A stretch of DNA of 64,000 nt, taken from contig NZ_QLLN01000006.1 of the NCBI RefSeq assembly GCF_003259375.1, positions 124,001 to 188,000 of the forward strand. The letters are read 5' to 3'. This stretch comes from Arenibacter echinorum. Its GTDB lineage: Bacteria > Bacteroidota > Bacteroidia > Flavobacteriales > Flavobacteriaceae. The translations under genes were made by a program, and so were the position numbers. Positions 15,855 to 61,606 of the stretch are shown one piece after another. Below the pieces are notes generated by a model, which did not search any database, was not told the DNA's origin, and was given only the letters and a program-made list of their open reading frames with translations. Within the stretch, counting starts at the first letter, position 1, and the number at the start of each line of letters is the position of its first letter.

Positions 15855-15866
15855 TGACCTAAGTCA
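15855..15866 (-). promoter_or_regulatory. CRP/FNR-like operator, copy 1
   Basis: TGACCTAAGTCA is a fully symmetric TGAC-N4-GTCA, followed by T on the minus side. A minus-strand TTTG (CAAA at 15825-15828) lies one base off the spacing seen for the other copies, so the -7 match is weak here. It is placed to serve the secreted protein gene at 15257-15772. Confidence 0.65.
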
Positions 15867-15913
15867 TTCTGCTACATTTAATTAAGAAAACCCCCACACC
15901 CACAAGTCAGAAC

Positions 15914-15925
15914 TGACCAATATCA
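15914..15925 (+). promoter_or_regulatory. CRP/FNR-like operator plus promoter, copy 2
   Basis: TGACCAATATCA is followed by a perfect -7 box TAGATTTG (15949-15956), whose last base lies 36.5 bp from the operator centre. The predicted start of transcription is near 15960, which rules out the upstream ATG at 15954 and supports the start at 16041. It drives the NimA-like/P-type ATPase/DedA operon. Confidence 0.85.
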
Positions 15926-16040
15926 TATTTTACCAGCTTAGAAGGAACTAGATTTGATCTTATCAAGGATTTATGCGAAATGCCTTATAGGGGATTCCAT
16001 AGAACTGTCACAGAATAGTTTAAAGATTATAAAGCGGAAT

Positions 16041-16493
16041 ATGACAAATTTGACCACTAGCGAAAGTATTCGTTTACTAAAAGGCAACTACACCGGACAC
16101 TTGGGATATATATATCAGGATAAGCCTTATGTCCTCCCTATAACCTATTATTATGACAAGGATGATCATTCCCTAATAAGTTATTCAGCAGACGGACATA
16201 AGATAGATGCCATGCGTGAGAATACTGCGGTAACATTACTGGTAGAGGAAGTAAAATCATCCAATAATTGGCAATCGGTTATGGCCCATGGCACCTATGA
16301 AGAACTTCAAGGAACCGATGCCAAATTTAAGTTGCATCAATTTACAGAAGGGGTAAAAGGTCTTATCCTAGAGAAAGAGCATCGGGAAACCGAATTTATT
16401 AGTGAATTTTCAAGCAAATTGTACTCTCGAGGGATTCCGACGGTATATCGTATCAAAATAGTAGAGATTACTGGAAAAAGAAAAGAGACCTAG
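16041..16493 (+). CDS. NimA-like FMN-binding split-barrel protein (PNPOx family)
   Basis: The 150-residue protein fits the pyridoxamine-phosphate-oxidase-like split barrel of the NimA group. GHLGYIYQDKPYVLPITYYY, then GHKIDAMRENTAVTLLVEEV and WQSVMAHGTYEEL, match the order of conserved segments. Such proteins bind FMN or F420-like cofactors and reduce small molecules. A longer frame begins at 15954, but that start lies on the predicted -7 element, so ATG 16041 (MTNLTTSE) is chosen. It is the first gene of an operator-controlled operon with a P-type ATPase and DedA. Related flavin proteins occur in the mycobacterial DosR regulon. Confidence 0.82.
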   Translation: MTNLTTSESIRLLKGNYTGHLGYIYQDKPYVLPITYYYDKDDHSLISYSADGHKIDAMRENTAVTLLVEEVKSSNNWQSVMAHGTYEELQGTDAKFKLHQFTEGVKGLILEKEHRETEFISEFSSKLYSRGIPTVYRIKIVEITGKRKET

Positions 16494-16585
16494 ATAAGTA
16501 ATCGACAAGGTTAGTTTCCCCAATTTTCCAGCCATTTCCCAAAATGTGAAACTTCCATTTTTTTGAACCACTCAATTCACAGCCC

Positions 16586-19105
16586 ATGGCCAAGTCAATA
16601 GCACCTTTTTGGACCAAATATAGTGATGAAGTGGTCGAGGAGCTGAATTCAAATCCTGAAAAGGGACTTACCCAAGAGGAAATAAAAATACGTACGGAGA
16701 AGGCGGGCGCTATTACCCTCGCCCCTAATTCACATGTATCAGATTTTTGGCTTCTATTCAATCAGTTTAGAAGTCCTTTTATGGCACTGCTATTATTTGC
16801 AGATATCCTTTCCTTTTTTTTAGGAGAACATGTGGATGCCATCATTATATTCTGCATCATTATTTTAAGTGGGGTACTAAGCTTTTGGCAAGAAAGAGGG
16901 GCACAAAACATAGTCAGAGAATTATTGGCAATGGTAAAAGTGACCGCCAAAGTATTACGGGATGGCACCCAACAATCCATCGATTTGGAAAAAGCAGTTC
17001 CCGGAGATATAGTTATTCTATCCGCTGGTGATGTTGTGCCTGCCGACTGCCTAATCATTGAAGCCAATGACCTCTTCGTGAATGAAGCAATGTTGACAGG
17101 GGAGCCCTATCCGGAGGAAAAAAAGTTAGGAAAATTGCCTGTGGACACCAGCTTAAAAGATCGCTACAATTGCTTATTCAAAGGAACCCATATAACCAGT
17201 GGTTTTGCTAAAGCTATTGTCGTATTGACGGGAAAAGACACGGAATTTGGCAAAATTGCAGAAAAGATAAAACCCAATAAAGTAGAAACAGAATTCGAAA
17301 GAGGATTGCGAAAGTTTGGCTATATGCTTATGGAGATTGCTCTTATGCTTGCCCTTATTATTTTTGCAGTCAATGTCTATTTCGAGAAGCCGTTTATAGA
17401 TTCCCTCCTTTTCTCCCTAACCCTGGCCATAGGGGTTACTCCTTTTTTATTACCCGCCATTGTAAGTATAAATTTAGCCTATGGTGCCAGACATATGGCC
17501 TCACAAAAAGTAATCGTCAAGCGATTGGTGTCCATTGAAAATTTTGGCAGCATGAATATCTTCTGTTCCGATAAAACCGGGACCCTTACTTCTGGTGAAA
17601 TTCACATACATGACTATTTGGATACCAATGGTATAAAAAATGAAAAGATTATGGATATGGCATATTTAAATGCCATCTACCAAACAGGCTATGCCAACCC
17701 AATAGATAAAGCTATAAAATAACAACACAAGTTGGATTTGACCAACTACAAAAAATTGGATGAAGTCCCCTTCGACTTTACGCGTAAACGGCTTAGTATT
17801 CTTGTGGAACAAAATGGTTCCCAATTCATAATTACAAAGGGAACTTTTAAAAAAGTAATGGAAGTCTGCACCTATGTGGATAACAATGGCAGCATAGAAG
17901 CTATTGAATCCTACCGAAAAAAAATTAATACCCTTTTCGAAGAATCCACTAAAAAGGGACTTCGAATTATTGCTTTGGCCTATAAACCTTTGGAGGAAAA
18001 AATTATAGATCGTTCCATAGAGAAAGAAATGACCTTTTTAGGCATGATTTTCTTGGATGACCCGGTAAAGGCCGGAGTGGTTGACTCAGTAAAACAAATG
18101 AGAACCCTGGGCATTACTCTCAAGATCCTTACCGGCGATAATAAAAATGTAAGTCTCTTCGTAGGAAAACAGTTGGGCATCAGCGAAAAAAAGGTATTGA
18201 CCGGGGCCGATCTAAATAAATTGGATGATATCGCTTTAATAAAAAAGGTAAATGAAATAGACATTTTTGCTGAACTGGAACCAAGTCATAAGGAAAGAAT
18301 TGTAAATCTACTTTCAAAATCCGGTAATGTGGTAGGTTATATTGGCGATGGGGTCAATGATGTGTCTGCCATTCAGGCTGCTGATGTAGGAATTTCCGTT
18401 GAGAACGCGGTTGATGTAGCCAAAAACACCGCAGACTTTATATTGCTGGAAAAAGAACTTAAAGTCTTGATAAATGGTATTATAACCGGTAGGAAAACTT
18501 TTGTCAACACCATCAAATATATTTTTATGACCACCAGTGCCAATTTTGGCAATATTACTAGCATGGCCATAATCTCCATGTTTTTGCCATTCCTGCCCTT
18601 GCTTCCGAAACAAATTTTGGCAACAAATTTTATATCGGATTTTCCAGCAATGACCATACCATCAGATAATGTGGATGACGACTGGATAGCTATGCCAAAA
18701 AAATGGAACCTTAAGTTCATTAAAAAATTTATGATTCGTTTTGGTTTGCTAAGCTCATGTTTCGACTTTCTGACATTTGCTATTTTAATATATATCACCA
18801 AAAGTGATCAGGAACATTTTAGATCTGGCTGGTTTATGGTAACCATTCTAACAGAATTTGTGGTTTTATGGGTGCTACGTTCCAAAAAAGTATTCTATAA
18901 AAGTAAACCTGGAAAATTCTTATTGTTTACCACCTTAGGCATGTTTATCCTGGGAATAGGATTGCCCTACACTCCTTTGGGGAAAATATTGGAACTTTCG
19001 GTATTATCACTTCAAACCGTGCTCATGCTTATGGGTGTGGTGGTATTATATGGTATAGCAAATGAAATCCTAAAAAAATATTTTTATAGGACGATTCACT
19101 TTTGA
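16586..19105 (+). pseudogene. MgtA-like P-type ATPase split by an in-frame TAA
   Basis: Two open frames, 16586-17722 (378 residues) and from about 17732 to 19105 (457 residues), lie in the same reading frame. They are separated only by TAA at 17720-17722 and three sense codons. Together they give one complete ~839-residue P3B (Mg2+-type) ATPase. The first half has TGEPYPEEK, the membrane segment TPFLLPAIV and the phosphorylation motif SDKTGTLT. The second half has KGTF (in place of KGA), LTGDN, GDGVNDVSAIQAADVGI and the last membrane helices. The break falls between phosphorylation and nucleotide-binding domains, in the stretch PIDKAIK-stop-QHKLDLTNYKKLDEVP. It could be a recent nonsense mutation, a sequence error, readthrough, or two half-proteins. 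All other motifs are intact, which suggests the change is recent or tolerated. Confidence 0.8.
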
Positions 19106-19113
19106 AGGCGATT

Positions 19114-19704: not shown

Positions 19705-19890
19705 GATGTTCTTAATACTACTCTGCAAACCTAAATGGGAAGGTTTACCAAAACAAACTTAACTTCAATTTAAAGTGGTCAGCTATTTACAGTTAAAGTG
19801 CCCTACAACTACGTAATTCATATATTTATCGACAGCTTTTCCTTTTAAATTCTTTAACAAAAATATCTCCAATCGCATACTGTTAGGAAC

Positions 19891-19902
19891 TGATCAATAT
19901 CA
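19891..19902 (+). promoter_or_regulatory. CRP/FNR-like operator, copy 3
   Basis: TGATCAATATCA, followed by TTTTATACC, lies 72 bp before the PEP synthase start. A -7-like TGATATTG (19925-19932) ends one base short of the usual spacing, so the promoter match is weaker than at other copies. Confidence 0.75.
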
Positions 19903-23292: not shown

Positions 23293-23304
23293 TGATTAAT
23301 ATCA
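23293..23304 (+). promoter_or_regulatory. CRP/FNR-like operator plus promoter, copy 4
   Basis: TGATTAATATCA has symmetric TGAT/ATCA half-sites. The -7 box TTCCTTTG (23328-23335, one mismatch to TAnnTTTG) ends exactly 36.5 bp from the centre. It lies 74 bp before the D-lactate dehydrogenase start and drives ldhA-gpmA-pfkB-glk. Confidence 0.8.
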
Positions 23305-23378
23305 TATTAGATCACCTTCATAATTACTTCCTTTGGGATTGCAATTAGAACACCTATGCGTGGTCTGTAATCCAAAAA

Positions 23379-27317: not shown

Positions 27318-28178
27318 CTAGAAAAATAGGGTTTTATGGTTGTGTTCATTAAAGCTCATCAATATTATCTCGCCCTTATCCTCCATTTTTTTTACTAGAT
27401 CCCTATGGAACCATTTTTTTAAAAATCCTTTCTTTTCCCTTTCCAGCATCACTACCATATCCGCATTTACGACCCCAAGATAGATTCTGAGGGTATCAAA
27501 TACATCTTCCGAAAACAATAGTTCGAACTCAATTTCTGAATAATCTACCTTGGATTTGAGCATCTCCTTGAACCACTCCATTAATAAGTCTCCCGCATAT
27601 TCCTCGTTCGTTGAAATATGCACTACCTTAATCTTTGCTTTTAAGGGTTTGGCAATTTCGGAAAGTTTTTGAATGGCATGTATATCTTCCTCTTCAAAAT
27701 CTGTGGCATAAACCATGGTATCCATATTTCTAGGCAATATATCATTGGGAATTGCAATTACGGGACAAGGTGCTTTCTCTATGAGTTTCTTGGTGGTACT
27801 GCCCATGATCATTTCCTCAAGACCACTTGCTCCTTTAGTACCCACCACAATCAGTTGGGCGTGATACTCTTCTGCCTTTGATATAATTCCTTTGATTACC
27901 GAACTGTTCTGTACAGGCTCCAATTGTATTTTGGGATTGTCCCACTTGCTTCCAAGGTGTTCTGTGCAGAATTTTTCCAGCTGGGCACGGTGAATTTTAA
28001 ACGGATTTCCTTCAAGGACAGGCCGGTCATCCTGTCCCTCAACACCCAAAACAGTAGGTAAATTAAATGTGTGGGTGACCACCAGTCGAGTTCCCAGATC
28101 CTGACTTAAATTATAGGCCAACTGCAAAGCAGAGACCGAGTTTTTAGAATAATCCGTGGCATAAAGCAATGTTTTCAT
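27318..28178 (-). CDS. Universal stress protein, tandem UspA domains
   Basis: The 286-residue protein has two UspA-like domains. The first carries the canonical ATP-binding signature G-x2-G-x9-G-S/T (VGTKGASGLEEMIMGSTT). The second domain (from about residue 150) is degenerate and lacks it. It opens with LLYATDYSKNSVSALQLAY. Such proteins are cytosolic and often bind ATP under growth arrest. It is divergent from pta; operator copy 5 sits in the shared region with a one-mismatch -7 box on this strand (28297-28304). Confidence 0.9.
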   Translation of the reverse strand: MKTLLYATDYSKNSVSALQLAYNLSQDLGTRLVVTHTFNLPTVLGVEGQDDRPVLEGNPFKIHRAQLEKFCTEHLGSKWDNPKIQLEPVQNSSVIKGIISKAEEYHAQLIVVGTKGASGLEEMIMGSTTKKLIEKAPCPVIAIPNDILPRNMDTMVYATDFEEEDIHAIQKLSEIAKPLKAKIKVVHISTNEEYAGDLLMEWFKEMLKSKVDYSEIEFELLFSEDVFDTLRIYLGVVNADMVVMLEREKKGFLKKWFHRDLVKKMEDKGEIILMSFNEHNHKTLFF

Positions 28179-28327
28179 TTTATGATGAATTGTAATTTAT
28201 CAGCAAAACTTGCAAGCAACAGATCCGATTGGATTACATCCTAAGATACTTGCTATTTTAAGAAGTTAAATTGTTAATGGAATAAATTTGATTGGTTAAA
28301 ATTAGAACCTAATGTCGTATCCATAAA

Positions 28328-28339
28328 TGACTTCTATCA
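28328..28339. promoter_or_regulatory. CRP/FNR-like operator, copy 5 (divergent)
   Basis: TGACTTCTATCA lies between pta-ackA (+) and a USP gene (-). On the minus side TAATTTTA (28304 to 28297, one mismatch) ends 36.5 bp from the centre. On the plus side the same offset holds GAACTTCG (28363-28370, two mismatches). It may serve both directions. Confidence 0.7.
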
Positions 28340-32040: not shown

Positions 32041-32243
32041 GATTATAAATTTAAGTTATAGAACTTTTAAAAACCCCACAAGGCACTTTCAATGCCATTG
32101 TTAAGGAATATTTTTATATGTAAACATCAATCTGTGAAAAGCATCCTTTTGCACTTCATTCCTAACGATTCATGCAACTTTCCGCTTTTTCCAATTTTTT
32201 AACTTGATAAATCAAAGTAAATGGATATGTATTCCTATTCAAA

Positions 32244-32255
32244 TGATATATGTCA
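32244..32255. promoter_or_regulatory. CRP/FNR-like operator plus promoters, copy 6 (divergent)
   Basis: TGATATATGTCA. On the plus side a perfect -7 box TAATTTTG (32279-32286) ends 36.5 bp from the centre, 39 bp before the ATG at 32325. On the minus side TTACTTTG (32220 to 32213, one mismatch) has the same offset toward the DUF2892 gene. Confidence 0.85.
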
Positions 32256-32324
32256 TTTCAGGGACCAATACCTTTAAATAATTTTGTAGTACGCCAAGTA
32301 TTATAGTACTTAAAGCAAATTATC

Positions 32325-36903: not shown

Positions 36904-36968
36904 ACTTTATATAATTATATTTTAAATAGTTGTACTTCAAAAATGCCAACTTCCTTCTTCTAAAAAAA

Positions 36969-36980
36969 TGATTTTAATCA
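36969..36980 (-). promoter_or_regulatory. CRP/FNR-like operator plus promoter, copy 7
   Basis: TGATTTTAATCA has symmetric TGAT/ATCA half-sites. On the minus strand CATTTTTG (36945 to 36938, one mismatch to TAnnTTTG) ends 36.5 bp from the centre, about 35 bp before the sigma-like gene's ATG. Confidence 0.8.
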
Positions 36981-37041: not shown

Positions 37042-37533
37042 TTAAATTAATTTGTCCAACTTTTCTTCTATCAGCTGAATTTGCGGCAAAGTGTGGCGCA
37101 CCAAAAGAATTAAGTGTCCTTTTTTTAGTGCCTTGAGATAAAAATTAACCTTATCCTCCGTTATGCCCAATCCCCTTAAAATTCCATACGGTCCGGCCGA
37201 CATAGATCCCAGTGGTCTCCCCGATATATCAAATAAAAATTGGGAGGCCAAGGCACCAGCAATAAAGAGAGTCCCAAACTCTGTATGGGGAAATACGCCA
37301 AAATTTACCTTTTCTTTTAAAACCCTGTTCCAATAAGCATTCCAGTCCGATTCTTGAAGTAAATCCTTTTTGCCATTGGCAACAAGGTTGTTTCCAAGTT
37401 TTCCCAGGACAGATATTTGCGGCCTTTCCATATCTTCCTCAAGAATAATTTCAATGGCCTTACGCAACATCTTTAGATGCTCATAATCCCTCAAAATAAA
37501 ATTATACACCGCTTTATTTACCCTAGTATTCAT
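37042..37533 (-). CDS. Glycine-zipper-containing protein, possible general stress protein
   Basis: The 163-residue protein has a helical N-terminus and then a stretch rich in Gly, Phe and Ala (GVFPHTEFGTLFIAGALASQ). A glycine-zipper-like segment (RPLGSMSAGPYGILRGLGI) and a final helix-strand unit (YLKALKKGHLILLVRHT) follow. This order is reminiscent of YflT/GSP17M-like general stress proteins, in which a Gly-rich insertion precedes a 'G-h-h-L-V' strand, but I cannot confirm the family. It is divergent from the YtxH operon; operator copy 8 has a one-mismatch -7 box toward it. Confidence 0.65.
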   Translation of the reverse strand: MNTRVNKAVYNFILRDYEHLKMLRKAIEIILEEDMERPQISVLGKLGNNLVANGKKDLLQESDWNAYWNRVLKEKVNFGVFPHTEFGTLFIAGALASQFLFDISGRPLGSMSAGPYGILRGLGITEDKVNFYLKALKKGHLILLVRHTLPQIQLIEEKLDKLI

Positions 37534-37610
37534 TTGATAAAGAATGATGAAATGGCTAGGTTGGTATATTCGTCCAACCCTAATTTAAGAACTAATGCCT
37601 GTAAATGATA

Positions 37611-37622
37611 TGATTTATATCA
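37611..37622. promoter_or_regulatory. CRP/FNR-like operator plus promoters, copy 8 (divergent)
   Basis: TGATTTATATCA. On the plus side a perfect -7 box TATTTTTG (37646-37653) ends 36.5 bp from the centre. On the minus side TAAATTAG (37587 to 37580, one mismatch) has the same offset. It is placed almost midway between the two start codons (77 and 74 bp). Confidence 0.87.
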
Positions 37623-37696
37623 TTTCCAAAGCATTTTAATAGACTTATTTTTGAGTATCATTTTAAAATATGTAATAATCAAAAAAATCAGTAATC

Positions 37697-38636: not shown

Positions 38637-39704
38637 TTAAAAATCCGCTACCTCCCTGAGTCCCTTTTCATTTAAAATAATGATCCTTCTTCCGTGGTCG
38701 GTGGCAATAAGGCCTTCGTCCTTAAAATCGGATAGGGTTCGAATAGCTGTTTCAGTAGCGGTACCGATCATACCGGCAAAATCCTCCCTTGGAATTCCTA
38801 TTCCGCCCATGGGTTTGTCCTGTATAACATGTTTATCATAAAGTTCCAAAAGGGCCTTTGCCGCCCTTTGCCTTACCGAGGCAAAAGCCATATCCACCAA
38901 TTGCTCCTGTAGGTGCATTAAATTATTGGATATCATTCCTATGAATTTCTGTGAAACGGCAGAGTTACCATAGATTAATTTGGTAAAATCCTTCCTAGGT
39001 ATGGCGCACATTTCGGCATCCTCCAAAACAGTGGCATTTTCAACATAAACTTTATCGGAATTCAATAAAGATATTTGTCCAACAAAATCTCCCGGACCAT
39101 ATATTCCGGTTACAAATTCCTTTCCGGATTCCGTACTCTTGTAGGTCTTTACACTACCCTTTTCTATAAAATACAAGGATTTTGCGTTATCGCCTTCCCA
39201 AAAAACAATATCCTTTTTATGATACGTTTTAAGGGGATAATCCTTGGGTAGACTTTTCAAATCGTGGTATTGGGAAGCCTCGTCCAGAAATTTATTGAGG
39301 CCTTCCAAGTTTTTGGCAATCTCTTTTTTTAGAAAGTCGCTCTTTCGTAAACGGGAGGATATGGCTTCGAGTAATTCCTTTTCCTCAAAAGGTTTCGTCA
39401 GATAATCGTCGGCCCCCAAATTCATTCCCAACCTCACCTCTGCCCTATCGGTTTTTGCCGTTAGAAATATAAAGGGTATGCTGGAGGTGGCACTATTTTT
39501 ACCCAACAGTTCCAAGACTCCATAGCCGTCCAGTTCTGGCATCATAATATCACATATGATTACGTCTGGCTTAAATTTTTCTGCAAGTTCTACCCCTATT
39601 TTTCCATTCTCGGCAGTAGCTACATCGTAATTGGCCAATTCCAATATGTCCGCTGTATTTTCCCTTACATCCTTGTTATCCTCAATTAATAGAATTTTTT
39701 TCAT
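38637..39704 (-). CDS. Response regulator with receiver, cNMP-binding and CRP/FNR HTH domains
   Basis: The 355-residue regulator has a receiver domain (residues 1-120; phospho-acceptor Asp52, Lys104). A cyclic-nucleotide-binding-like beta-roll follows (about 155-265, FWEGDNAKSLYFIEKGSVK and GPGDFVGQISLL), then a CRP-type helix-turn-helix (275-350). The recognition helix reads T-E-T-A-I-R with Glu318 and Arg322 at the positions that contact the TGA half-site in CRP and FNR. No Fe-S cysteine cluster of the FNR type is present. Its gene overlaps the 3' end of the LOV-PAS kinase gene by 23 bp, so they are a cognate pair. It is proposed to bind TGAYNNNNRTCA. A near-identical architecture is encoded at 59576-60628. 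Confidence 0.93.
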   Translation of the reverse strand: MKKILLIEDNKDVRENTADILELANYDVATAENGKIGVELAEKFKPDVIICDIMMPELDGYGVLELLGKNSATSSIPFIFLTAKTDRAEVRLGMNLGADDYLTKPFEEKELLEAISSRLRKSDFLKKEIAKNLEGLNKFLDEASQYHDLKSLPKDYPLKTYHKKDIVFWEGDNAKSLYFIEKGSVKTYKSTESGKEFVTGIYGPGDFVGQISLLNSDKVYVENATVLEDAEMCAIPRKDFTKLIYGNSAVSQKFIGMISNNLMHLQEQLVDMAFASVRQRAAKALLELYDKHVIQDKPMGGIGIPREDFAGMIGTATETAIRTLSDFKDEGLIATDHGRRIIILNEKGLREVADF

Positions 39705-42435
39705 TTTCGTATATATTTACCGGAAGCATTAAACTGAAGGTACTACCCACTCCTAATTCACTGTTAAAGCTAACACCACCGCTTAAAAGCTCCGTATACT
39801 GTTTCACAATATGAAGTCCAAGACCTGTGCCCTGAATATTGGTGGCGTTCTCTGCACGAAAAAAGCGGTTAAAAAGATTTTTTTGCTCCTCTTTGGGTAT
39901 CCCAATGCCTTTGTCCTTAATATTTATGGATAAGTCTTTACCATTAACCTTAATTTCAATGATGATCTCCTTTTGCTCCTCCGAATATTTTATGGCATTG
40001 GAGAGAAGATTTATAAGGATATGATTCAATAGTTTCGGATCCAGATAAACCGATATTGAAGGTTGGGAATGCTTTAATACAATGTCCTGGCCTTCTTTTT
40101 TGTTCGGCTCCAATTCATCGATTAACATTTTAACAAACTGTATTAACTCAAAAGACTTTGGTTTTACCTGCACTTTGCCCTCTTCCAATTTGCTCAAGGA
40201 CAGAAAATCATTAAGAATAACAACTAGATCCTTTACATTATTTCTAATTCTGGAAACGTGCTTCATCCTCCTATCTTCCTTACCGGGTTCATTTTGTTTT
40301 CCTATTAGGATTGCAGAAGATAGAATGGCACTTAGTGGGGTTCGGAATTCATGGGAGGCCATCGAAATAAAACGGGATTTCAGCTCATTTAGTTCCTTTT
40401 CCACCTTGAGTGTCTTTTCCAATTTATGCTGAACCTCTTTCTGCTCGGTAACATTGTTGTAAACGAACAAGGCCCACTTTATTTCCTTTTCATCGGAATA
40501 GAGCGGTGTGGAATTTACCGCATAACACTGATTTTGAAAATCCACTTCAAATGAAATATTGCTCCCCCTTAATGTTTTTCGAATATCGGATTTAATTTTA
40601 TTGATCTGCCATTTTGAAAAAACCGGGATATGATCAATGGGTATTCCTTCAAAATCTGACTTATTAATATTGATCCGGTCCATTTCCTCCCCTTCCACAT
40701 AAACCAGTTCATAATCGGAATTAAAGACCATAATTACCCCATTGGGAAAATTGTGCGCTATCGCGGTAAACAATGCCCTACTCAGCTTGGCCTTCCTTTC
40801 CGCTCTTTGTGTCTCTACCAACTGATCTTCCAGGCTTAAACTGGTAGACACCAATTTTTGCACTGTGGATTGAACCTCCCTAGTACGTTCTTCAACGGTA
40901 TTCTCTAAATGAAGGGCATATTCCTCCAATTTTTTCTTGGCATCCTGAATTTCTGTTACATCGTTCAGAACCCCTATAAAATGGGTTAATTTTTCGTTTT
41001 TATCATATAGAGGGGTAATGAACAGATCGTTCCAAAAGAGGGCGCCATCCTTTCTATAATTTCTTACCAACACCCTACAAGGCGTTCCCTCCTTCACGGC
41101 TCGGGCCAATTGGGCAATTCCAAGCTGATCACGATCGTCGTTCTGTAAAAATCTACAGTTTTTGCCCGTCACTTCTTCAGTCCCATATCCGGTAATATCT
41201 GTAAAAGACTTGTTGCAATAAATTATAGGCTGATCAGGAAGTTTGGCATCCACAATAATGATACCGTTCCCGACAGCTTCCAAGGCCCGATTTCTAATAT
41301 TCAAGGTATTCTGTAAGAATGTAGTTTCGGTAATATCCAAGCCCGAGCTTACCACCCCAATAATTTCATTATTTCCATTCCTCAAGGTAGCATTGCTCCA
41401 TTGAATTAGTCGCTCTTCCCCACCTTTGGCAACTATATGGTTTTCGTAAATATTGGGCACTTCCAACTTCTCCTGGAAAATGACTTCAAAGAGTTCTGTT
41501 ATTCGCTTTTTATCCCTGGCCGGTATAAAATTTCCAAACCAATTTTTATTCAAAATAGCATCTTGTTCCAATCCCAAAATTTCACAGGTCCTTTTATTGA
41601 CCAGTTCAACAGTATGGTCCTTATTGATCACTAGAAACATTGTAGGAGAAGAATCCATATATTGACGTAGCAATTTTTTCTCCTTGTCCAGGGCCATTTC
41701 TATTTCCTTCCCCTTTGTTATATCCTGCATAAAACCTTCCAAACCGCAGACATTTCCCTGCTCGTCCATTACGCAGGAAACCTGTTCCCATATCCATTTT
41801 ATTTGCTTGTTTGCAGTAGCGATCCTATAAGTGAGTTGATACTGTTTCTTATCCGCCATTCCCTTCTCCACCTCAAGCAAAATCCTGGACAAATCTTCAG
41901 GATGAATTAAGATATCCCAACTTATATCCGGGCTATCATAAAATTGCGCCGGAGAATATCCAGTTATGTTTAAGCAGGCTTCACTGATAAATTCAATGTT
42001 CCAAGGTCTATCAGTTTTAGAGCGATATACAATTCCGGACACATTGGAAATCAACGTTCTAAACTTTCTATCACTTTCAAATACTGAAATATCGGCCGGT
42101 TTACAATAAATGACTTTTAGGTTCTGAGATTTTACTACAGTTGGGACGATCCTGATATCGATTGGAAATTTTACGCCATTCCTGTCCCGGCCATAGAACT
42201 GATTGGGGCCCACGACAACCTTATTCATCTCTGCACCAACAGCATTTAGCTTCCAATCAGGAATAATAAATTGGATATCCCGCTGTACCAACTCCCCTTC
42301 AACATATCCGAACATCTTTTGGGCAGACATGTTGGCAATGAGAATAGATCCATGTTGATCCACCACAAATAATCCAGCTAAGGAAGATTCAAAAATGGAT
42401 TGAAAGAGATCGCTATTTGTTAACTGTTCATTCAT
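39682..42435 (-). CDS. Multi-PAS histidine kinase with a LOV domain
   Basis: The 917-residue sensor is soluble, with no membrane helix. It has five PAS units (about 7-115, 122-243, 255-370, 381-495, 550-665), then HisKA with His695 in SHEFRTP and an HATPase domain (N-box NLLSNAIKYS, G1 DKGIGIP, G2 GTGLGL). The fourth PAS is a LOV domain: GKNCRFLQ at 424-431 with the photoactive Cys427, NYRKDG (Asn459) and FWN (Asn469). The conserved Gln of the last strand is replaced by Leu490 (FIGVLNDVT). A coiled coil links LOV to the fifth PAS. The kinase probably senses blue light through FMN, plus other signals, and phosphorylates the overlapping response regulator. Operator copy 9 with a perfect -7 box predicts autoregulation. 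Confidence 0.93.
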   Translation of the reverse strand: MNEQLTNSDLFQSIFESSLAGLFVVDQHGSILIANMSAQKMFGYVEGELVQRDIQFIIPDWKLNAVGAEMNKVVVGPNQFYGRDRNGVKFPIDIRIVPTVVKSQNLKVIYCKPADISVFESDRKFRTLISNVSGIVYRSKTDRPWNIEFISEACLNITGYSPAQFYDSPDISWDILIHPEDLSRILLEVEKGMADKKQYQLTYRIATANKQIKWIWEQVSCVMDEQGNVCGLEGFMQDITKGKEIEMALDKEKKLLRQYMDSSPTMFLVINKDHTVELVNKRTCEILGLEQDAILNKNWFGNFIPARDKKRITELFEVIFQEKLEVPNIYENHIVAKGGEERLIQWSNATLRNGNNEIIGVVSSGLDITETTFLQNTLNIRNRALEAVGNGIIIVDAKLPDQPIIYCNKSFTDITGYGTEEVTGKNCRFLQNDDRDQLGIAQLARAVKEGTPCRVLVRNYRKDGALFWNDLFITPLYDKNEKLTHFIGVLNDVTEIQDAKKKLEEYALHLENTVEERTREVQSTVQKLVSTSLSLEDQLVETQRAERKAKLSRALFTAIAHNFPNGVIMVFNSDYELVYVEGEEMDRININKSDFEGIPIDHIPVFSKWQINKIKSDIRKTLRGSNISFEVDFQNQCYAVNSTPLYSDEKEIKWALFVYNNVTEQKEVQHKLEKTLKVEKELNELKSRFISMASHEFRTPLSAILSSAILIGKQNEPGKEDRRMKHVSRIRNNVKDLVVILNDFLSLSKLEEGKVQVKPKSFELIQFVKMLIDELEPNKKEGQDIVLKHSQPSISVYLDPKLLNHILINLLSNAIKYSEEQKEIIIEIKVNGKDLSINIKDKGIGIPKEEQKNLFNRFFRAENATNIQGTGLGLHIVKQYTELLSGGVSFNSELGVGSTFSLMLPVNIYENEKNSIN

Positions 42436-42590
42436 TGTACTTTTGCTGTTCTTTACTAATTGGTCCTGACGAAACCAAAAGGAAGTGCTGCTAAGTTGTT
42501 TCGTTACATATCTACTGCCAATTGAAGCCTATGTTCCGGTAATATGGCACTCAGTTACACAAATGTATTGTGCACTACATCCGAAAGAAA

Positions 42591-42602
42591 TGATATCGGT
42601 CA
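42591..42602 (-). promoter_or_regulatory. CRP/FNR-like operator plus promoter, copy 9
   Basis: TGATATCGGTCA. On the minus strand a perfect -7 box TACATTTG (42567 to 42560) ends 36.5 bp from the centre and leads to the LOV kinase gene with a leader of about 120 nt. No -7 box is found at this offset on the plus side, so the patatin gene is probably not a target. Confidence 0.82.
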
Positions 42603-42695
42603 TAACCCCTACCTAGATTGTAAAAACCTGACAATGGTCATATGCGTATTTCTTTAGATGGAATAATTTTGATTCAAATTCTAAATAAAAGGTTT

Positions 42696-46831: not shown

Positions 46832-46900
46832 AGTATTTTGTTTTTAAGGGTTATATATTTATTGTGCCTCTAAAGTACATCCAACAAGCCTTGTACAAAA

Positions 46901-46912
46901 TGATTTAGGTCA
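46901..46912. promoter_or_regulatory. CRP/FNR-like operator plus promoters, copy 10 (divergent)
   Basis: TGATTTAGGTCA between hsp20 (-) and a P-type ATPase gene (+). On the minus side TACTTTAG (46877 to 46870) and on the plus side TATTTTTA (46936-46943) each have one mismatch to TAnnTTTG, and both end 36.5 bp from the centre. TTTTGTAC abuts the operator on the minus side, giving a -33 TTTG. Confidence 0.82.
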
Positions 46913-47052
46913 GTCACACCAAAATTCTTTACATTTATTTTTACCATATCAAATCATTATATCAAAACTGTGCTAACCTTATACCAATTAGAAAGAATAC
47001 GAAAGTTGGATTGCCATATATGGTTAACTACAATTTTGTTAATTTAGACAAC

Positions 47053-53105: not shown

Positions 53106-54188
53106 TCAGGATACTGTTTTAAACAAAATAAACTCCCCTATATTGACCATATCTATAGCTCCAATTAATTTTGAATTCCTTGTAACGGGAAAAAAGCTTT
53201 TCTTTTCCTTTCCTACCAATTCCAATACTTTAAGGATTTCTGTAGATTCATCAATTGCGGTGAAGTTCTTATCCATAATTTCCTTTACAAGTGTTGAAGG
53301 GGTCTTGGCATACTTAATAACATCCTTCTGGGTTACAATTCCAATAATTTCCATGTCCTTGGCTACCACAAAATCTTTTTCCGTACTTGCCATAAGGATA
53401 TCTATAACTTCTTGAACATTATTATCCGGACGTAATATCGTTATATTGGTCAAAGTGGCCTCCTTTACCAGATGTCCCTGCAGCAGGGAATTTTGCTTAA
53501 CCATTTGATTCTCGCCATAAGCCCCGAAGAAAATAAAAAAGGCAATAAGTATTAAAAAGGGATTTACGAAAAATCCTAGTATAAAAAATACCACAGCCAA
53601 GGCCTGGCCAATACTGGCTGCGATATTCGTTGCATCTACACGACTCAATCTAAATGCTAACAAGGCCCTAAGTACCCGTCCGCCATCCATAGGAAATGCA
53701 GGTATAAGATTAAATACCACCAACATTACATTGGCTACAAAAAGATAAAATAGAAAATTCTGTAGGTTGGGTGCATATAGCATCTCTTCTACCATTATAT
53801 TATCGAAATTGAAATAGCTTTTGATAGGTATTATAAGAGACAAAATAATGGCTATCACAACATTAACAGCCGGACCGGCCAAGGCTACCAAAAGTTCCTG
53901 CCCCGGTTTTTCCGGCATTTTGTCCAAGGTGGCCACACCGCCAATGGGTAGAAGAATAATTCTTTGAGTCTTGATTCCAAACTTTCTAGCGGTCAGGGCA
54001 TGACCCAGTTCATGTAGTACTACACAGGCCATCAATACCAAAATAAATCCTTGGTTAACGGCCACCCTTTCAAAGTTTCCACTATTCTGAAACTCAACAA
54101 AACCGGCCCAAATCAATAATAGTGCAAAAGTCCAATGGACCTCCAATTGAATACCGGCAATCTTTCCCAACCTTAAAAAACCTTTCAT
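53106..54188 (-). CDS. M50 site-2-type metalloprotease with two CBS domains
   Basis: The ~360-residue membrane protease has HELGH (zinc ligands and catalytic Glu) in an N-terminal helix, the second motif AFPMDGGRVLRALLAF with the Asp ligand, about six membrane helices, and two C-terminal CBS domains. This is the Rip3/Rv2625c-type architecture, and that protein is a DosR-regulon member. The open frame continues to 54239, but operator copy 11 overlaps it; the start MKGFLRLGKIAG at 54188 leaves the operator 45 bp upstream. Substrates are unknown; CBS domains suggest nucleotide control of intramembrane proteolysis. Confidence 0.9.
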   Translation of the reverse strand: MKGFLRLGKIAGIQLEVHWTFALLLIWAGFVEFQNSGNFERVAVNQGFILVLMACVVLHELGHALTARKFGIKTQRIILLPIGGVATLDKMPEKPGQELLVALAGPAVNVVIAIILSLIIPIKSYFNFDNIMVEEMLYAPNLQNFLFYLFVANVMLVVFNLIPAFPMDGGRVLRALLAFRLSRVDATNIAASIGQALAVVFFILGFFVNPFLILIAFFIFFGAYGENQMVKQNSLLQGHLVKEATLTNITILRPDNNVQEVIDILMASTEKDFVVAKDMEIIGIVTQKDVIKYAKTPSTLVKEIMDKNFTAIDESTEILKVLELVGKEKKSFFPVTRNSKLIGAIDMVNIGEFILFKTVS

Positions 54189-54233
54189 AAATAATATTTT
54201 GCTGAAGATATTTCCACAGCACGACATTGACAA

Positions 54234-54245
54234 TGACAAATGTCA
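54234..54245 (-). promoter_or_regulatory. CRP/FNR-like operator, copy 11
   Basis: TGACAAATGTCA is a fully symmetric TGAC-N4-GTCA. At the standard offset on the minus strand lies TATCTTCA (54210 to 54203, two mismatches). It is in front of the M50 protease gene and also supports the shorter start at 54188. Confidence 0.75.
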
Positions 54246-56308: not shown

Positions 56309-56360
56309 GATTTTGAATTTTAATTTCCTCTAAAATAGTGTATCGTAATCCAGTACAAAA

Positions 56361-56372
56361 TGACCAATGTCA
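56361..56372 (-). promoter_or_regulatory. CRP/FNR-like operator plus promoter, copy 12
   Basis: TGACCAATGTCA. On the minus strand TTTTGTAC abuts the operator as in the hsp20 promoter. TATTTTAG (56337 to 56330, one mismatch) ends 36.5 bp from the centre, about 20 bp before the WG-repeat protein start. Confidence 0.82.
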
Positions 56373-56512: not shown

Positions 56513-56524
56513 TGACCAATATCA
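56513..56524 (+). promoter_or_regulatory. CRP/FNR-like operator plus promoter, copy 13
   Basis: TGACCAATATCA is followed by a perfect -7 box TATTTTTG (56548-56555) whose last base is 36.5 bp from the centre. It is predicted to drive the USP gene at 56703 with a leader of roughly 140 nt. Confidence 0.87.
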
Positions 56525-56702
56525 TTTTAAATAGTCCCGCCACTGTATATTTTTGTTTCAGAACATTTTGACATTCTACCGAGACCTTGGCCTAGTCTAC
56601 CAAGAATTGGCAATTTTGCATGGGGGCCATCACCTCACATAAGGGAATTGAAACGGCTGTCATAAGTAGAACTAAGATGATCATAACCATAAAAAACATA
56701 CA

Positions 56703-57527: not shown

Positions 57528-57559
57528 CAAATAAACGGAGTCTAACCACTTCTACTTTA

Positions 57560-57964
57560 TTATTCCTTGAGCAAAAGTTCCAATTTGCCCAACATTACCA
57601 ATTCTGCCTTATTTTTTCCTGAAAAACTATTGGAAATGGCATTCGCTGTATCCAATATAAGCACCTTTATGAACGCGCTGAACATACCTCTATTGTCTTT
57701 ATAGAAATCCTTAAATTCATCGTAGCATGCTTCACTTTCCAAATCATTGTCCATTGACCAATCGAACACCGATTCGATTTGAAAGGCCGCGTCGGTACCA
57801 AATTCATCCTCCAGCTCATCTACTTCCAACCAATATTTTCTAATAAAAGACCTAAGCTTGCTTACTTCCTTACCATGTACGCGGGAATCTGCCATGGCAA
57901 TGGCATAAAATAATTTTCCCAGGTTTTCGTACAATTCCTTACCTACTTTCTTTGTATTTTTCAT
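57560..57964 (-). CDS. TerB-like protein
   Basis: The ~134-residue helical, acidic protein resembles TerB-like domains: LFYAIAMADSRVHGKEVSKLRSFI (helix, acidic loop, helix), followed by acidic helices (SMDNDLESEACYDEFKDFY). TerB folds bind metal ions and occur in stress systems. A TTG at 57979 is in frame, but ATG 57964 (MKNTKKVG) is the likely start. It is divergent from the FixL-like kinase gene; operator copy 14 has a one-mismatch -7 box at the standard offset toward it. Confidence 0.72.
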   Translation of the reverse strand: MKNTKKVGKELYENLGKLFYAIAMADSRVHGKEVSKLRSFIRKYWLEVDELEDEFGTDAAFQIESVFDWSMDNDLESEACYDEFKDFYKDNRGMFSAFIKVLILDTANAISNSFSGKNKAELVMLGKLELLLKE

Positions 57965-58020
57965 TTTTATATTGTTCAAGAGTATGCGTTAAAAATAGCG
58001 AATAGACCAAGTTTTTTATA

Positions 58021-58032
58021 TGACAATAATCA
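58021..58032. promoter_or_regulatory. CRP/FNR-like operator, copy 14 (divergent, asymmetric)
   Basis: TGACAATAATCA. Toward the TerB-like gene (-) TATTTTTA (57997 to 57990, one mismatch) is at the standard 36.5-bp offset. Toward the kinase gene (+) a perfect -7 box TATCTTTG (58045-58052) ends only 25.5 bp from the centre, 11 bp closer, so the operator would overlap the -33 region and could repress. Confidence 0.75.
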
Positions 58033-58056
58033 GTTTAAAAATTTTATCTTTGGCTT

Positions 58057-59568
58057 ATGCAGGCCTTTCAAAAAAACAGTGAAATATTCAACCTTCTTTC
58101 CGAAGGGGTATCCGAAGGAATTATAGTTGTCAATACCCAACAGCTTATTGTAGCCACCAATTCCTCGGCCGGGAGAATGTTTGGCTACCATAAGGGCGAG
58201 CTTCTTGGAAAACCCTTGGACACCCTAATACCCAGAAGGTACCACGGGCATCACGGCCACCATGTGGAGGACTTTATTGATAAAAGTGAACGTAGGCAAA
58301 TGGGCCGGGGTAGGGATTTGCACGGGGTACGTAAAAACGGCGAGGAATTTCCGGTCGAGGCGGGTCTAAATCCGTTTAAGCTTTATGACGAAACCTATGT
58401 AATGGCCCTAGTTATCGATATTACAGAACGTAAGATCAAGGAAAAGGAACTTAGCCATTGGGCCAGGATCTTTGATGAATCCCTTAACGAAATTTACGTT
58501 TTCAACGCCAAAACACTACATTTTGTAAATGTCAACAAAGAAGCTCAGCGAAATATGGGCTATGACCTGGAAGATTTTAAGGCCATGACCCCATTGGATA
58601 TTAAGCCCCATATGGACGTGCCACAATTTAAACTACTTATAGACCCGTTGTTGAAGGGAGAAAGGGATAAGGTAAAGTTTGAAACAGACCACCAAAGAAA
58701 GGACGGATCTATTTATCCTGTAGAAGTGCATATTCAATTATCAATTCTTGGTGAAGAGCAGGTTTTTGTTGCCATAATACTCGATATCACAGAACGAAGA
58801 AGTTACACGGAAAAACTAGAAAAAAAGGTCCAAGAGCGTACCAAACAACTTACCGAAGCCCTGGCCAAGGAGAAAGAACTGAACGAACTAAAAACACGCT
58901 TCCTTTCCTTGGTTTCCCATGAATTCAAAACCCCTTTGAGCAGTATACTTACCTCTATAACGCTATTGGCCAAGTATACCGAAAGTCACCAACAGGAAAA
59001 GCGCGACAAACACGTAGAAACAATAAAGAACAAAGTACGATATTTGGATACCATTTTAACCGATTTCCTTTCGGTGGAGCGTTTGGATTCAGGAAAGGTA
59101 AATTACAAGATCGAAACTTTCCCTCTAAGCAAAATTATAAACGAGGTTGTTTATGGTGCAAACATGCTACTTAAGGCGGGCCAAACCATCCAATATCCAG
59201 AGAATATCGATGACATTTTCATCAGATTTGACGAAAAAACCTTAGAACTTGCCTTGTCCAACCTAATTCACAATGCCATTAAATACTCCCCTGAAGATAC
59301 AACCATAAGTCTAGCGGTGGATAAGGGAAAAGATACTATATTAATAGAAGTTATTGATCGTGGTATTGGCATACCTGCCGAGGAACAAAAACATATTTTC
59401 AATCGTTATTTTAGGGCAGAAAATGCATTATTGAACCAAGGTACGGGCATTGGACTTAATATTGCCAAACAGCATTTGGAAAATCTTGGCGCCACTATTG
59501 AATTTACTAGTGAAGAAAACAAGGGATCTATTTTTACTGTAATTATCCCATTAGAAAACATAAATTAA
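58057..59568 (+). CDS. PAS histidine kinase with a FixL-like first PAS domain
   Basis: The 503-residue soluble sensor has PAS1 (about 9-128), PAS2 (about 137-250), a coiled coil, HisKA with His288 in SHEFKTP, and HATPase motifs NLIHNAIKYS, DRGIGIP and GTGIGL. PAS1 aligns without gaps to the FixL heme domain over the segment from LIPRRY to GRGR. His66 falls at the FixL proximal heme ligand position and Arg86 at the FixL regulatory arginine. This histidine is also common in non-heme PAS domains, so oxygen sensing is only suggested. The response-regulator gene follows after 7 bp. The predicted -7 box ends 5 bp before the ATG, so the mRNA may be leaderless. Confidence 0.9.
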   Translation: MQAFQKNSEIFNLLSEGVSEGIIVVNTQQLIVATNSSAGRMFGYHKGELLGKPLDTLIPRRYHGHHGHHVEDFIDKSERRQMGRGRDLHGVRKNGEEFPVEAGLNPFKLYDETYVMALVIDITERKIKEKELSHWARIFDESLNEIYVFNAKTLHFVNVNKEAQRNMGYDLEDFKAMTPLDIKPHMDVPQFKLLIDPLLKGERDKVKFETDHQRKDGSIYPVEVHIQLSILGEEQVFVAIILDITERRSYTEKLEKKVQERTKQLTEALAKEKELNELKTRFLSLVSHEFKTPLSSILTSITLLAKYTESHQQEKRDKHVETIKNKVRYLDTILTDFLSVERLDSGKVNYKIETFPLSKIINEVVYGANMLLKAGQTIQYPENIDDIFIRFDEKTLELALSNLIHNAIKYSPEDTTISLAVDKGKDTILIEVIDRGIGIPAEEQKHIFNRYFRAENALLNQGTGIGLNIAKQHLENLGATIEFTSEENKGSIFTVIIPLENIN

Positions 59569-59575
59569 AAGAACA

Positions 59576-60628
59576 ATGAAGACTATTCTATTGATCGAGG
59601 ACGATAGGGCCTTACGTGAAAACACCGAAGAGCTTTTGGAGCTTTCAGGTTATTCCATGATTACCGCCCCGAACGGAAAAATTGGTATCCAAATGGCGAA
59701 AGAAAAATTGCCGGATATTATCGTCTGCGACATTATGATGCCGGAAGTAGATGGTTATGGTGTTCTAAAGGAGTTGTCTTCCAATGAAAAAACCAAACAC
59801 ATTCCTTTTATATTCCTATCTGCCAAAACCGAACACAAGGAAATACGACGGGGAATGGATCTGGGAGCAGACGATTACCTTACCAAGCCTTTTGAAGAGG
59901 AAGATCTTGTAAGTGCCATTGAAAGTCGTTTGGCAAAAGTGGAACTTTTGGGGCGCATGGCACAGGAAGGGTCACAAGGTACTGCAGGTTCGGAAGATCA
60001 AATACGCACCTTGAACGAGTTGAAGAATTTTTTTGACGACAATGGTGAGCCCACTAGTTTTCTTCAAGGAAGTACCATCTACCAAGAAGGTACATATTCG
60101 CATAAAATATATCTTATCCTAAAAGGAGTGGTAAAATGCCATACTATGGACGAGGACGGAAAAGAACTGATCACTTCCCTCTATAGGGCAGACGACTTTT
60201 TAGGATTTACCTCTTTTATAGACAATATTCCTTATCAAGAATCGGCAACCGCCATTGAGGATGTGGAACTGGCCGGGATATCCAAGGAAAATCTAAAACA
60301 GGTATTGGAAAATAACCACAATATCTCCTTGGAACTAATGGAACTGCTTACTGGAAATATTAAGGACATAAAACAGCAATTGTTGCAAATGGCCTACAGT
60401 TCCGTTCGTAAGAAAACCGCCCAAACCTTGCTGCAGTTCGCAGAAATAATGAACAAAAAAACCGAGGATCCCATTAAAATTTCCCGAAACGATCTGGCCA
60501 GTGTAGCCGGTATTGCCACCGAAAGCCTTATACGAACACTCTCCGGTTTCAAAAAAGAAGGGCTTATAGACATTGAAGGTAGAAATATCCGTATCAAGGA
60601 ATTAAAGGCCTTGCAGTACATCAATTAA
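59576..60628 (+). CDS. Response regulator with receiver, cNMP-binding and CRP/FNR HTH domains
   Basis: The 350-residue regulator has a receiver (Asp52, Lys104), a linker, a cNMP-binding-like beta-roll (GSTIYQEGTYSHKIYLILKG, RADDFLGFTSFI) and a CRP-type helix-turn-helix. The recognition helix T-E-S-L-I-R places Glu316 and Arg320 at the TGA-contacting positions, the same as Glu318/Arg322 of the regulator at 38637-39704. Both have Ile where FNR has the Ser that selects TTGAT, which fits the shorter TGAY half-site seen here. It is encoded 7 bp after its kinase. It probably shares operators with its paralogue. Confidence 0.93.
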   Translation: MKTILLIEDDRALRENTEELLELSGYSMITAPNGKIGIQMAKEKLPDIIVCDIMMPEVDGYGVLKELSSNEKTKHIPFIFLSAKTEHKEIRRGMDLGADDYLTKPFEEEDLVSAIESRLAKVELLGRMAQEGSQGTAGSEDQIRTLNELKNFFDDNGEPTSFLQGSTIYQEGTYSHKIYLILKGVVKCHTMDEDGKELITSLYRADDFLGFTSFIDNIPYQESATAIEDVELAGISKENLKQVLENNHNISLELMELLTGNIKDIKQQLLQMAYSSVRKKTAQTLLQFAEIMNKKTEDPIKISRNDLASVAGIATESLIRTLSGFKKEGLIDIEGRNIRIKELKALQYIN

Positions 60629-60661
60629 GTATATTCTTAAAACATAATTTTTATTCAAAAC

Positions 60662-60673
60662 TGACCAATGTCA
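60662..60673 (+). promoter_or_regulatory. CRP/FNR-like operator plus promoter, copy 15
   Basis: TGACCAATGTCA is followed by a perfect -7 box TAGTTTTG (60697-60704) ending 36.5 bp from the centre, 23 bp before the USP start at 60728. Confidence 0.9.
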
Positions 60674-60727
60674 TATTTCAGTTATGATCATAAGTCTAGT
60701 TTTGTATTGATGTAGCTATTTAATTGA

Positions 60728-61564
60728 ATGAAGAATATACTGTTCCCCACCGATTTTTCCAAAAATTCTTGGAACGCTATTGAATATGCCATAAAGCTGT
60801 TCAAGGATGCCCCCTGTAATTTTTACGTACTCCATGTTGATTCCTTGAGTCGATCCGGTATAGAGAGCAATTCCTTCGTTTTGCCATCCAAAGGCATCAA
60901 TACGGCACTCAGGGACAATCTTACGGATACCTTTGCCCGCATAAAAACCATCACCACCAACAAGGACCATCACTTCATTGCCCTGCATGAATATGGAAAT
61001 CTCATAGATATTATTCGAAAGACCGTATTGGATAAAAAGATAAATCTAATTGTCATGGGGACCAAAGGGGCTTCTGGTATAAAAGAAACCATTTTAGGCA
61101 GCAATACCGGGAATGTAATGACCAAAGTACCCTGCAATCTATTGGTGATTCCAGAAAAAGCCGTGCAGTGTGTCCCCAAGGAAGTTGCCTTTCCTACCGA
61201 TTACAATATTTTCTATTCCCATTCTATTTTGGAGGCTATTTCAAAAATGCTACGGCTCACCAAAGCCAAGCTAAGAGTTGTTAATGTCACCAAGTCCAAT
61301 GTACCACTAAATGATGCCCAAAATCAGAATATGGCCTATCTACAGGACTATTTGCTGGAACTCTTCGAAAAATCGCATAGCATGCACAACCTAAAACATG
61401 AAAAGGCAAAAAGTGCCATAGAGCAATTTGTGGTCCGTGAGAAAATAGATATGGTAATCATGGTGGCCAAGAACCTTAATTTTTTACAGCAACTGCTTTT
61501 CGATACCACCATTAAAAAAATTAGTTTTCAAACCAGTGTACCTTTACTAGTCCTGCACGAATAA
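60728..61564 (+). CDS. Universal stress protein, tandem UspA domains
   Basis: The 278-residue protein begins ILFPTDFSKNSWNAIEYA. It has the ATP-binding signature MGTKGASGIKETILGSNT in domain 1 and a second, degenerate domain starting with VAFPTDYN. It is the first of four consecutive USP genes and has its own operator (copy 15). The next gene has a separate one (copy 16). Confidence 0.92.
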   Translation: MKNILFPTDFSKNSWNAIEYAIKLFKDAPCNFYVLHVDSLSRSGIESNSFVLPSKGINTALRDNLTDTFARIKTITTNKDHHFIALHEYGNLIDIIRKTVLDKKINLIVMGTKGASGIKETILGSNTGNVMTKVPCNLLVIPEKAVQCVPKEVAFPTDYNIFYSHSILEAISKMLRLTKAKLRVVNVTKSNVPLNDAQNQNMAYLQDYLLELFEKSHSMHNLKHEKAKSAIEQFVVREKIDMVIMVAKNLNFLQQLLFDTTIKKISFQTSVPLLVLHE

Positions 61565-61594
61565 ACACCCACCCATAGATTGATATTGGGCTAC

Positions 61595-61606
61595 TGATAA
61601 ATGTCA
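61595..61606 (+). promoter_or_regulatory. CRP/FNR-like operator plus promoter, copy 16
   Basis: TGATAAATGTCA is followed by a perfect -7 box TAACTTTG (61630-61637) ending 36.5 bp from the centre, 22 bp before the USP start at 61660. It drives a three-gene USP operon. Confidence 0.9.

Follow-up and report, generated by a model that had tools for sequence, protein, structure and literature searches.

Promoters of the FNR, Anr and FixK type are class II promoters with the palindrome TTGAT-N4-ATCAA at -41.5, the class II activator position of CRP and FNR. In the FixL–FixJ–FixK pathway, a PAS kinase acts through a receiver on a CRP-family activator of micro-oxic genes, and mycobacterial DosR has a LuxR/NarL-type helix-turn-helix output and another operator. 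Transcriptional activation in Bacteroidota is poorly known. Here we analyse a 64-kb stretch of the Arenibacter echinorum genome (C6:124001-188000, 1.2% of the 5.19-Mb assembly; hereafter, the window) in which an operator, TGAYNNNNRTCA, recurs at a fixed distance from the Bacteroidota sigma-A -7 box, TAnnTTTG. Judging from the sequence, we consider it probable that TGAYNNNNRTCA-N23-TAnnTTTG (hereafter, the composite; perfect or with at most one mismatch, as stated) is a class II CRP/FNR-type promoter common to Fnr and to phosphorylation-gated response regulators that join a receiver to a CRP-type output (receiver-CRP regulators). A preliminary description of the window had read 16 operator copies as the sites of one activator that ties almost all operons of this island into one regulon; the observation is right and stronger than it was stated, and the one-activator, one-island reading is too narrow.

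The window holds 18 copies of TGAYNNNNRTCA, namely the 16 listed previously, each of which lies where it had been placed, and two more (42629, which is intergenic, and 63617). About four copies had been expected by chance; the computed value is 4.1, and 100 dinucleotide shuffles of the window averaged 4.08 copies and never exceeded 9. When TAnnTTTG was counted at gaps of 5-59 nt in both orientations of the 18 operators, gap 23 alone stood out: a box was present there for 17 of the 36 oriented operators, on 14 of the 18 operators, and was perfect in 8 cases and one mismatch off in 9. The other 54 gaps yielded 20 boxes of at most one mismatch altogether, that is, 0.37 per gap (binomial P ~1e-24 for gap 23). 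The seven perfect boxes cited before are all real and the operator at 42629 makes eight, the 16 promoter directions become 17, and the T that had been said to follow every operator on its promoter side is found in 16 of these 17 (the plus side of 46901 lacks it). Between the operator centre and the end of the -7 box lie 36.5 bp; with the sigma-A box of Flavobacterium psychrophilum at -12 to -5 (PMC9723704), a box 23 nt away would put that centre at -41.5. The window operators would then take the class II position, as the earlier value of about -41 had implied, insofar as the F. psychrophilum box can be carried over to this genome.

A called gene lies at most 200 nt away in 16 of the 17 box directions, the exception being the minus side of 32244. 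Two called starts (15954 and 42642) fall on or before their -7 box, so the real starts are probably further on. Among the weak points of the spacing claim is the trio of operators at 15855, 19891 and 54234, at which the best box has two mismatches; the operator at 63617 lies inside a universal stress protein (USP) reading frame (C6:187387 onward) and is without a box.

The island is the dense part of a genome-wide regulon. A whole-genome scan with one mismatch allowed anywhere in operator-N23-box returned 79 composites, compared with 4 for the reversed pattern; the 24 perfect ones include 8 from the window. The window contains 17 of the 79 (P ~1e-16) and five more lie within 10 kb of its right end, but 62 are elsewhere, which rules out a regulon confined to the island; the claim of one regulon linking the island stands to the extent that the regulon is real and most island operons are covered. 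Outside the window, composites precede genes for CcoNO, HemN and copper nitrite reductase and the NosZ operon (names checked against NCBIfam), a heavy-metal P-type ATPase (NCBIfam-checked and CcoI-like) adjoining the gene of an Fnr-like protein, FtsH, a DnaJ protein, further USPs, a CheB-CheR-PAS protein and a thioredoxin-ApbE pair. Annotation covered 50 selected proteins from 19 of 20 regions, that is, part of the genes below the 79 sites, and the NCBIfam check six regulon proteins and four window proteins; on this basis the target set suggests low-oxygen respiration and energy-stress survival. A CRP-family protein centred at -41.5 might instead block the promoter, just as proteins bound across the -35 region are able to repress transcription in other bacteria. 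We hold such a repressor to be very unlikely, because a fixed centre at -41.5 is the geometry of class II activation, because the operators at 37611 and 46901 each serve divergent genes with both sides at spacing 23, and because cbb3, nir and nos genes are typically under positive control.

The features of the window are as follows.
15855..15866, no strand assigned: operator TGACCTAAGTCA; no clear -7 box, two mismatches toward open reading frame 15257-15772
15914..15956, plus: operator TGACCAATATCA, N23 and perfect box TAGATTTG, before the PNPOx-like / P-type ATPase / VTT operon; the called TTG start at 15954 overlaps the box
19891..19902, plus: operator before the phosphoenolpyruvate (PEP) synthase gene, two-mismatch box
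23293..23335, plus: one-mismatch composite before D-2-hydroxyacid dehydrogenase, His_Phos, PfkB and glucokinase genes
28297..28339, minus: one-mismatch composite before USP gene 27318-28178; the other side of its operator (28328) faces Pta-AckA with a two-mismatch box
32213..32255, minus: one-mismatch composite of operator 32244; faces the gap behind ackA and lacks a called gene within 4 kb
32244..32286, plus: perfect composite before the operon of hypothetical gene 32325 and an ABC1 kinase
36938..36980, minus: one-mismatch composite before the sigma region-4-like gene 36136-36903
37580..37653, no single strand: two divergent composites on one operator (37611-37622), perfect toward the YtxH gene 37697 and with one mismatch toward 37042-37533
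38637..39704, minus: response regulator RR1 (receiver, cNMP-like and HTH_Crp_2 domains; 355 aa)
39682..42435, minus: multi-PAS histidine kinase HK1, with a LOV domain at residues 384-510
42560..42602, minus: perfect composite upstream of HK1-RR1, probable autoregulation
42629..42671, plus: perfect composite at the patatin gene, absent from the earlier list; the called start at 42642 precedes the box
46870..46943, no single strand: divergent composites on one operator (46901-46912), toward Hsp20 (minus) and a P-type ATPase (plus), one mismatch each
54234..54245, minus: operator at the called start of the M50-CBS peptidase gene, two-mismatch box
56330..56372, minus: one-mismatch composite before WG-repeat and SDR genes
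56513..56555, plus: perfect composite before USP gene 56703
57990..58032, minus: one-mismatch composite before hypothetical gene 57560-57979
58057..59568, plus: PAS-PAS histidine kinase HK2, first PAS nearest the FixL/DosP haem PAS in PDB
59576..60628, plus: second receiver-CRP response regulator RR2 (350 aa)
60662..60704, plus: perfect composite before USP gene 60728
61595..61637, plus: perfect composite before USP genes 61660 and 62524

Pfam scans in the window covered 50 of the 70 open reading frames of at least 100 aa. The USPs, Hsp20 and cation pumps that had been named as targets are preceded by composites of at most one mismatch, with five USP genes in four units among them and the second P-type ATPase gene (47011) behind the plus side of operator 46901. 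Further targets named at the same time fared less evenly. The PEP synthase and fermentation (Pta-AckA) genes have their operators but only two-mismatch boxes, as do the M50-CBS peptidase gene and open reading frame 15257. The supposed sigma factor has its one-mismatch composite, but the protein (255 aa) scores 24.7 bits for sigma region 4 in Pfam, below the cut-off of 25.7, and matched no NCBIfam model at 1e-10. The proposal that the regulator controls its own sensor genes agrees with the perfect composite at HK1-RR1 but not with the HK2-RR2 side of operator 58021, where the box has three mismatches. Three details of individual loci may be added. Operator 54234 shares six bases with the mechanically called TTG start of open reading frame 53106-54239. 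A P-type cation ATPase occupies two adjoining frames (N-terminal half 16586-17722, C-terminal half 17732-19105), and the split (16586-19105) could reflect a frameshift, a pseudogene or an assembly error. The minus-side box TTACTTTG of operator 32244 is kept in 7 of 7 other Arenibacter loci; the composite to which it belongs (32213-32255) may be a small RNA promoter or chance.

The arrangement is conserved beside orthologs (at least 35% identity, half coverage and 300 nt upstream required). Boxes of at most one mismatch stand at gap 23 from 65 of 118 oriented operators in seven other Arenibacter loci and from 143 of 372 in 24 loci of other Flavobacteriaceae, where the next best gap between 15 and 45 has 15. 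Outside the genus, the composite precedes 14 of 15 orthologs of Hsp20, 9 of 9 of YtxH, 6 of 7 of hypothetical gene 37042 and 4 of 5 of hypothetical gene 32325, and genes that lie inside operons score zero (AckA 0/4, EEP 0/8, 38033 0/9 and ATPase 43615 0/8), with a bare operator at 3 of the 8 EEP orthologs. In Arenibacter, Pta has the composite in 0/3 cases but the operator in 3/3, with 1/3 outside the genus; hypothetical gene 35713, which has none in the window, has a composite in 5 of 11 orthologs outside the genus. The operator is short, and the four copies expected per window could invite the view that the motif is chance or a compositional product of AT-rich intergenic DNA; we give this view next to no credence, as it is refuted by the reversed-pattern controls, the single-gap peak and the conservation across genera.

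Six proteins of the genome match PF13545 above its cut-off. Both RR1 and RR2 carry PF00027 (cNMP_binding) and PF13545 (HTH_Crp_2) above cut-off, which places them in the CRP/FNR superfamily, together with a PF00072 receiver and an adjoining PAS kinase gene, the marks of two-component response regulators; a kinase frame lies directly upstream in 77 of 80 homologous regulator loci, and the other three are without one. RR1 is 97% identical to its A. troitsensis counterpart. CRP contacts cAMP through E72, R82 and S83; an alignment made for RR1 only puts Q, Y and V at these positions, which sets it apart from CRP proper and would fit phosphorylation as the switch. FNR uses N-terminal cysteines for a 4Fe-4S cluster, and the sequences of RR1 and RR2, which start with the receiver and have no FNR-type N-terminal cysteine motif, are not those of FNR proper. 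The helix ATE-S/T-x-IR is common to RR1, RR2 and the 248-aa Fnr-like frame on contig C4 (L075:4620-5366). This last protein has two N-terminal cysteines (CENC) and two later ones; it has a CxxC and a cysteine aligned with the last FNR cysteine, but not the third N-terminal cysteine, so that any iron-sulphur cluster it may bind would be ligated differently from the one in E. coli FNR. With three CRP-family proteins of nearly the same recognition helix in the genome, and with family-wide composite counts that follow two regulator types (see below), the single activator of the preliminary description has to be given up. As a side observation, RR1 relatives (49-53% identical) also occur on contigs (L130, L134, L139 and L169) of assemblies labelled Bacteriovorax, Bdellovibrionales, Deltaproteobacteria or Alphaproteobacteria, which may reflect mis-binning or transfer.

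In total, 149 Flavobacteriaceae genomes, each from a different genus, contain 1168 perfect composites, compared with 21 for the reversed pattern, and 134 of the genera have at least one. The median count is 15 where both types of regulator are encoded (n=41), 8 with receiver-CRP regulators only (n=25), 6 with Fnr only (n=56) and 0 with neither (n=27, of which 15 have no composite), after four of 70 genomes (G002, G058, G062 and G140) had been dropped from the regulator calls as one-domain matches. Genome size is ruled out as the cause, given the same order in genomes of at least 3.0 Mb (medians 15, 9, 6 and 1; n=37, 20, 42 and 9), and the dependence of the counts on both types likewise rules out a single activator. 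The nearest rival would have every site bound by the Fnr-like protein alone, with the receiver-CRP regulators acting elsewhere: the recognition helix of this protein has the same pattern as that of RR1 and RR2, composites are abundant in Fnr genomes without receiver-CRP regulators (the median of 6 above) and 8 of the 17 window sites fit an A/T core. We nevertheless regard this as rather unlikely, because receiver-CRP genomes without an Fnr match have a median of 8 as against 0 with neither regulator, RR1 homologs in other genera have operator-dense surroundings, and sites with a CTAG core track RR1 and cluster near it.

This last point concerns the central N4 of the operator. In 24 RR1 loci of other Flavobacteriaceae, N4 contains G or C in 46 of 56 distinct perfect composites (the commonest bases being C, T, A, G) and TT follows the operator in 37 of 56; in six Fnr-positive genomes without receiver-CRP regulators, the numbers are 10 of 53 and 4 of 53 among the matches listed, RR1-locus sites being counted once per distinct sequence and those of other groups every time. 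The RR1 loci include two near copies from Maribacter (L115 and L116), and the N4 sample includes G119 with 17 sites and G033 with 12 of 15, among the matches listed. The word TGAYCTAGRTCATT has 19 matches in 8 of 11 RR1-ortholog genomes and 12 in 8 of 138 others (Fisher P 4e-7); of the 19, a number that includes two palindromic places twice because both strands were counted, 14 are no more than 35 kb from RR1. The reverse of the word has 10 matches in all 149 genomes, none in an RR1 genome. These patterns are best explained by a preference of RR1 for a G/C-flanked central N4 (TGAYCTAGRTCAT-T).

Several observations weigh against a promoter shared by Fnr and the receiver-CRP regulators. CTAG-TT sites are absent from 3 of the 11 RR1 genomes, a search of the source genome for the exact CTAG-TT word gave none, and the window composites are mixed (G or C in the N4 of 9/17), so that RR1, RR2 and Fnr sites are not assignable one by one. 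Six RR2-only genomes have an Fnr-like A/T core (G or C in 18% of 56 sites, among the matches listed) and, as four of the six have no Fnr match, the specificities of RR2 and Fnr probably overlap. Three of the 27 genomes with neither regulator hold 5-9 composites, 'no Fnr' in these comparisons means no match at 1e-30 to one query, and the genomes are related, so tests on the counts are not independent. Some targets are less constant outside the genus: the composite precedes 1 of 6 orthologs of ATPase 47011, 1 of 9 of patatin (with a bare operator in 7 more), 4 of 10 of the sigma-like gene (with a bare operator in 5 more) and neither of two of HK1, although the HK1-RR1 composite is kept in 7 of 7 other Arenibacter loci. 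Finally, binding, activation, start sites, phosphorylation and signals are all inferred from the sequence.

The two kinases suggest which signals might be received. In HK1, residues 384-510 match LOV-containing chains of known structure (E 8e-39) and include GKNCRFLQ, with the flavin-adduct motif NCRFLQ in a PAS fold that marks a predicted LOV domain. Of 80 loci, 18 have this motif in the RR1-adjacent kinase, and the titles of all 18 name Flavobacteriaceae or its genera; this rules out LOV as a constant part of the system. FixL-type haem PAS domains have a proximal His and a distal Arg; the first PAS of HK2, whose closest PDB entries are FixL/DosP haem PAS domains, has a His and an Arg aligned with these positions, the same His being found also, among the results of that search, in a PAS kinase not named as haem-binding.

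Beyond the family, the same operator is used differently: Flavobacteriaceae have it as a single site, related orders often as a tandem pair. For the 352 oriented operators in 49 loci of other Bacteroidota (L121-L169), boxes peak at gap 23 (47 cases) and at gap 45 (56 cases), the latter because a second operator stands 22 bp further on and the box is 23 nt from the nearer one. A TGAN6TCA neighbour (at most one mismatch) at 22 bp accompanies 77 of 176 operators there and 5 of 186 in other Flavobacteriaceae loci; it was found at 0 of 59 in Arenibacter loci and at 0 of 18 in the window, which rules out tandem operators in the latter. Among 198 phylum-wide genomes, 23 of the 28 that belong to the class's other orders contain the exact tandem, with 177 strand hits as against 0 for the reversed pattern, and so do 4 of the 19 own-family genomes, with 9 hits. 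All 19 of the latter have the single composite (184 hits, compared with 4 reversed), as do 25 of the 28 from the other orders (91 hits, compared with 7 reversed). The own order is represented by two further genomes, with 16 single hits and no tandem, and the 149 genomes of other classes have few single or tandem hits, as seen without summing.

From the motif, its fixed spacing, its conservation genome-wide and across genera, and its co-occurrence with the regulators, all of which are observed, we suggest the following mechanism. A CRP-family dimer at -41.5 would contact RNA polymerase and do the work of a -33 element, in a promoter adapted to the Bacteroidota sigma-A -7 box. The composite would be read by at least two kinds of regulator: the Fnr-like protein, encoded beside the CcoI-type ATPase, would act on ccoNO, hemN, nirK and nosZ, and RR1 and RR2, in which the switch is most likely not ligand binding but the receiver, phosphorylated by the adjoining PAS kinase, would act on the island (that is, USPs, Hsp20, cation ATPases, sugar kinases and probably Pta-AckA and PEP synthase). 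The island may thus be a low-oxygen and energy-stress survival regulon, and the repeated operator most likely allows light- or oxygen-sensing kinases to switch on dozens of survival genes together. More tentatively, and as a possibility we would not favour as a whole, a LOV kinase that senses blue light and a haem kinase resembling FixL might feed two one-protein FixJ-FixK fusions, with operators that differ from those of Fnr mainly by an N4 code, such that a single class II network would integrate light and oxygen separately at each promoter, its architecture changing from a single operator in Flavobacteriaceae to a frequent tandem 22 bp apart in other orders of the class.

Searches of the open PMC literature gave no paper whose title or abstract describes the operator-box composite or a receiver-CRP regulator in Bacteroidota. 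As operator and -7 box at fixed spacing amount to ~26 bits, regulated promoters and their starts should be predictable from sequence; receiver-CRP fusions would be placed at the head of a survival regulon, and CTAG versus A/T core poses a clean specificity question that is testable with purified proteins.

Compared with FNR/Anr/FixK promoters, the composite has a near-identical palindrome, the same predicted geometry and, in Arenibacter, targets that include ccoNO, hemN, copper nitrite reductase, N2O reductase and USPs; it differs in its use of TAnnTTTG at N23 rather than a TATAAT-type -10, and in that it is apparently read by receiver-CRP fusions too, the RR1 version preferring a CTAG core. 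With FixL–FixJ–FixK it shares the order PAS kinase, receiver, CRP, and the first PAS of HK2 is nearest FixL in PDB, but RR1 and RR2 are without the LuxR-type output of FixJ; as receiver and CRP domains are in one protein, the two-step FixJ-FixK cascade would be collapsed. As in the DosR regulon, USPs, Hsp20, P-type ATPases, PfkB and an M50-CBS peptidase are found under sensor-kinase/regulator pairs, whereas the HTH_Crp_2 output of RR1 and RR2 puts them outside DosR itself. On these comparisons, the best reading is that of phosphorylation-gated CRP activators laid over an Fnr network, which would be the Bacteroidota counterpart of FixLJ-FixK or DosR.

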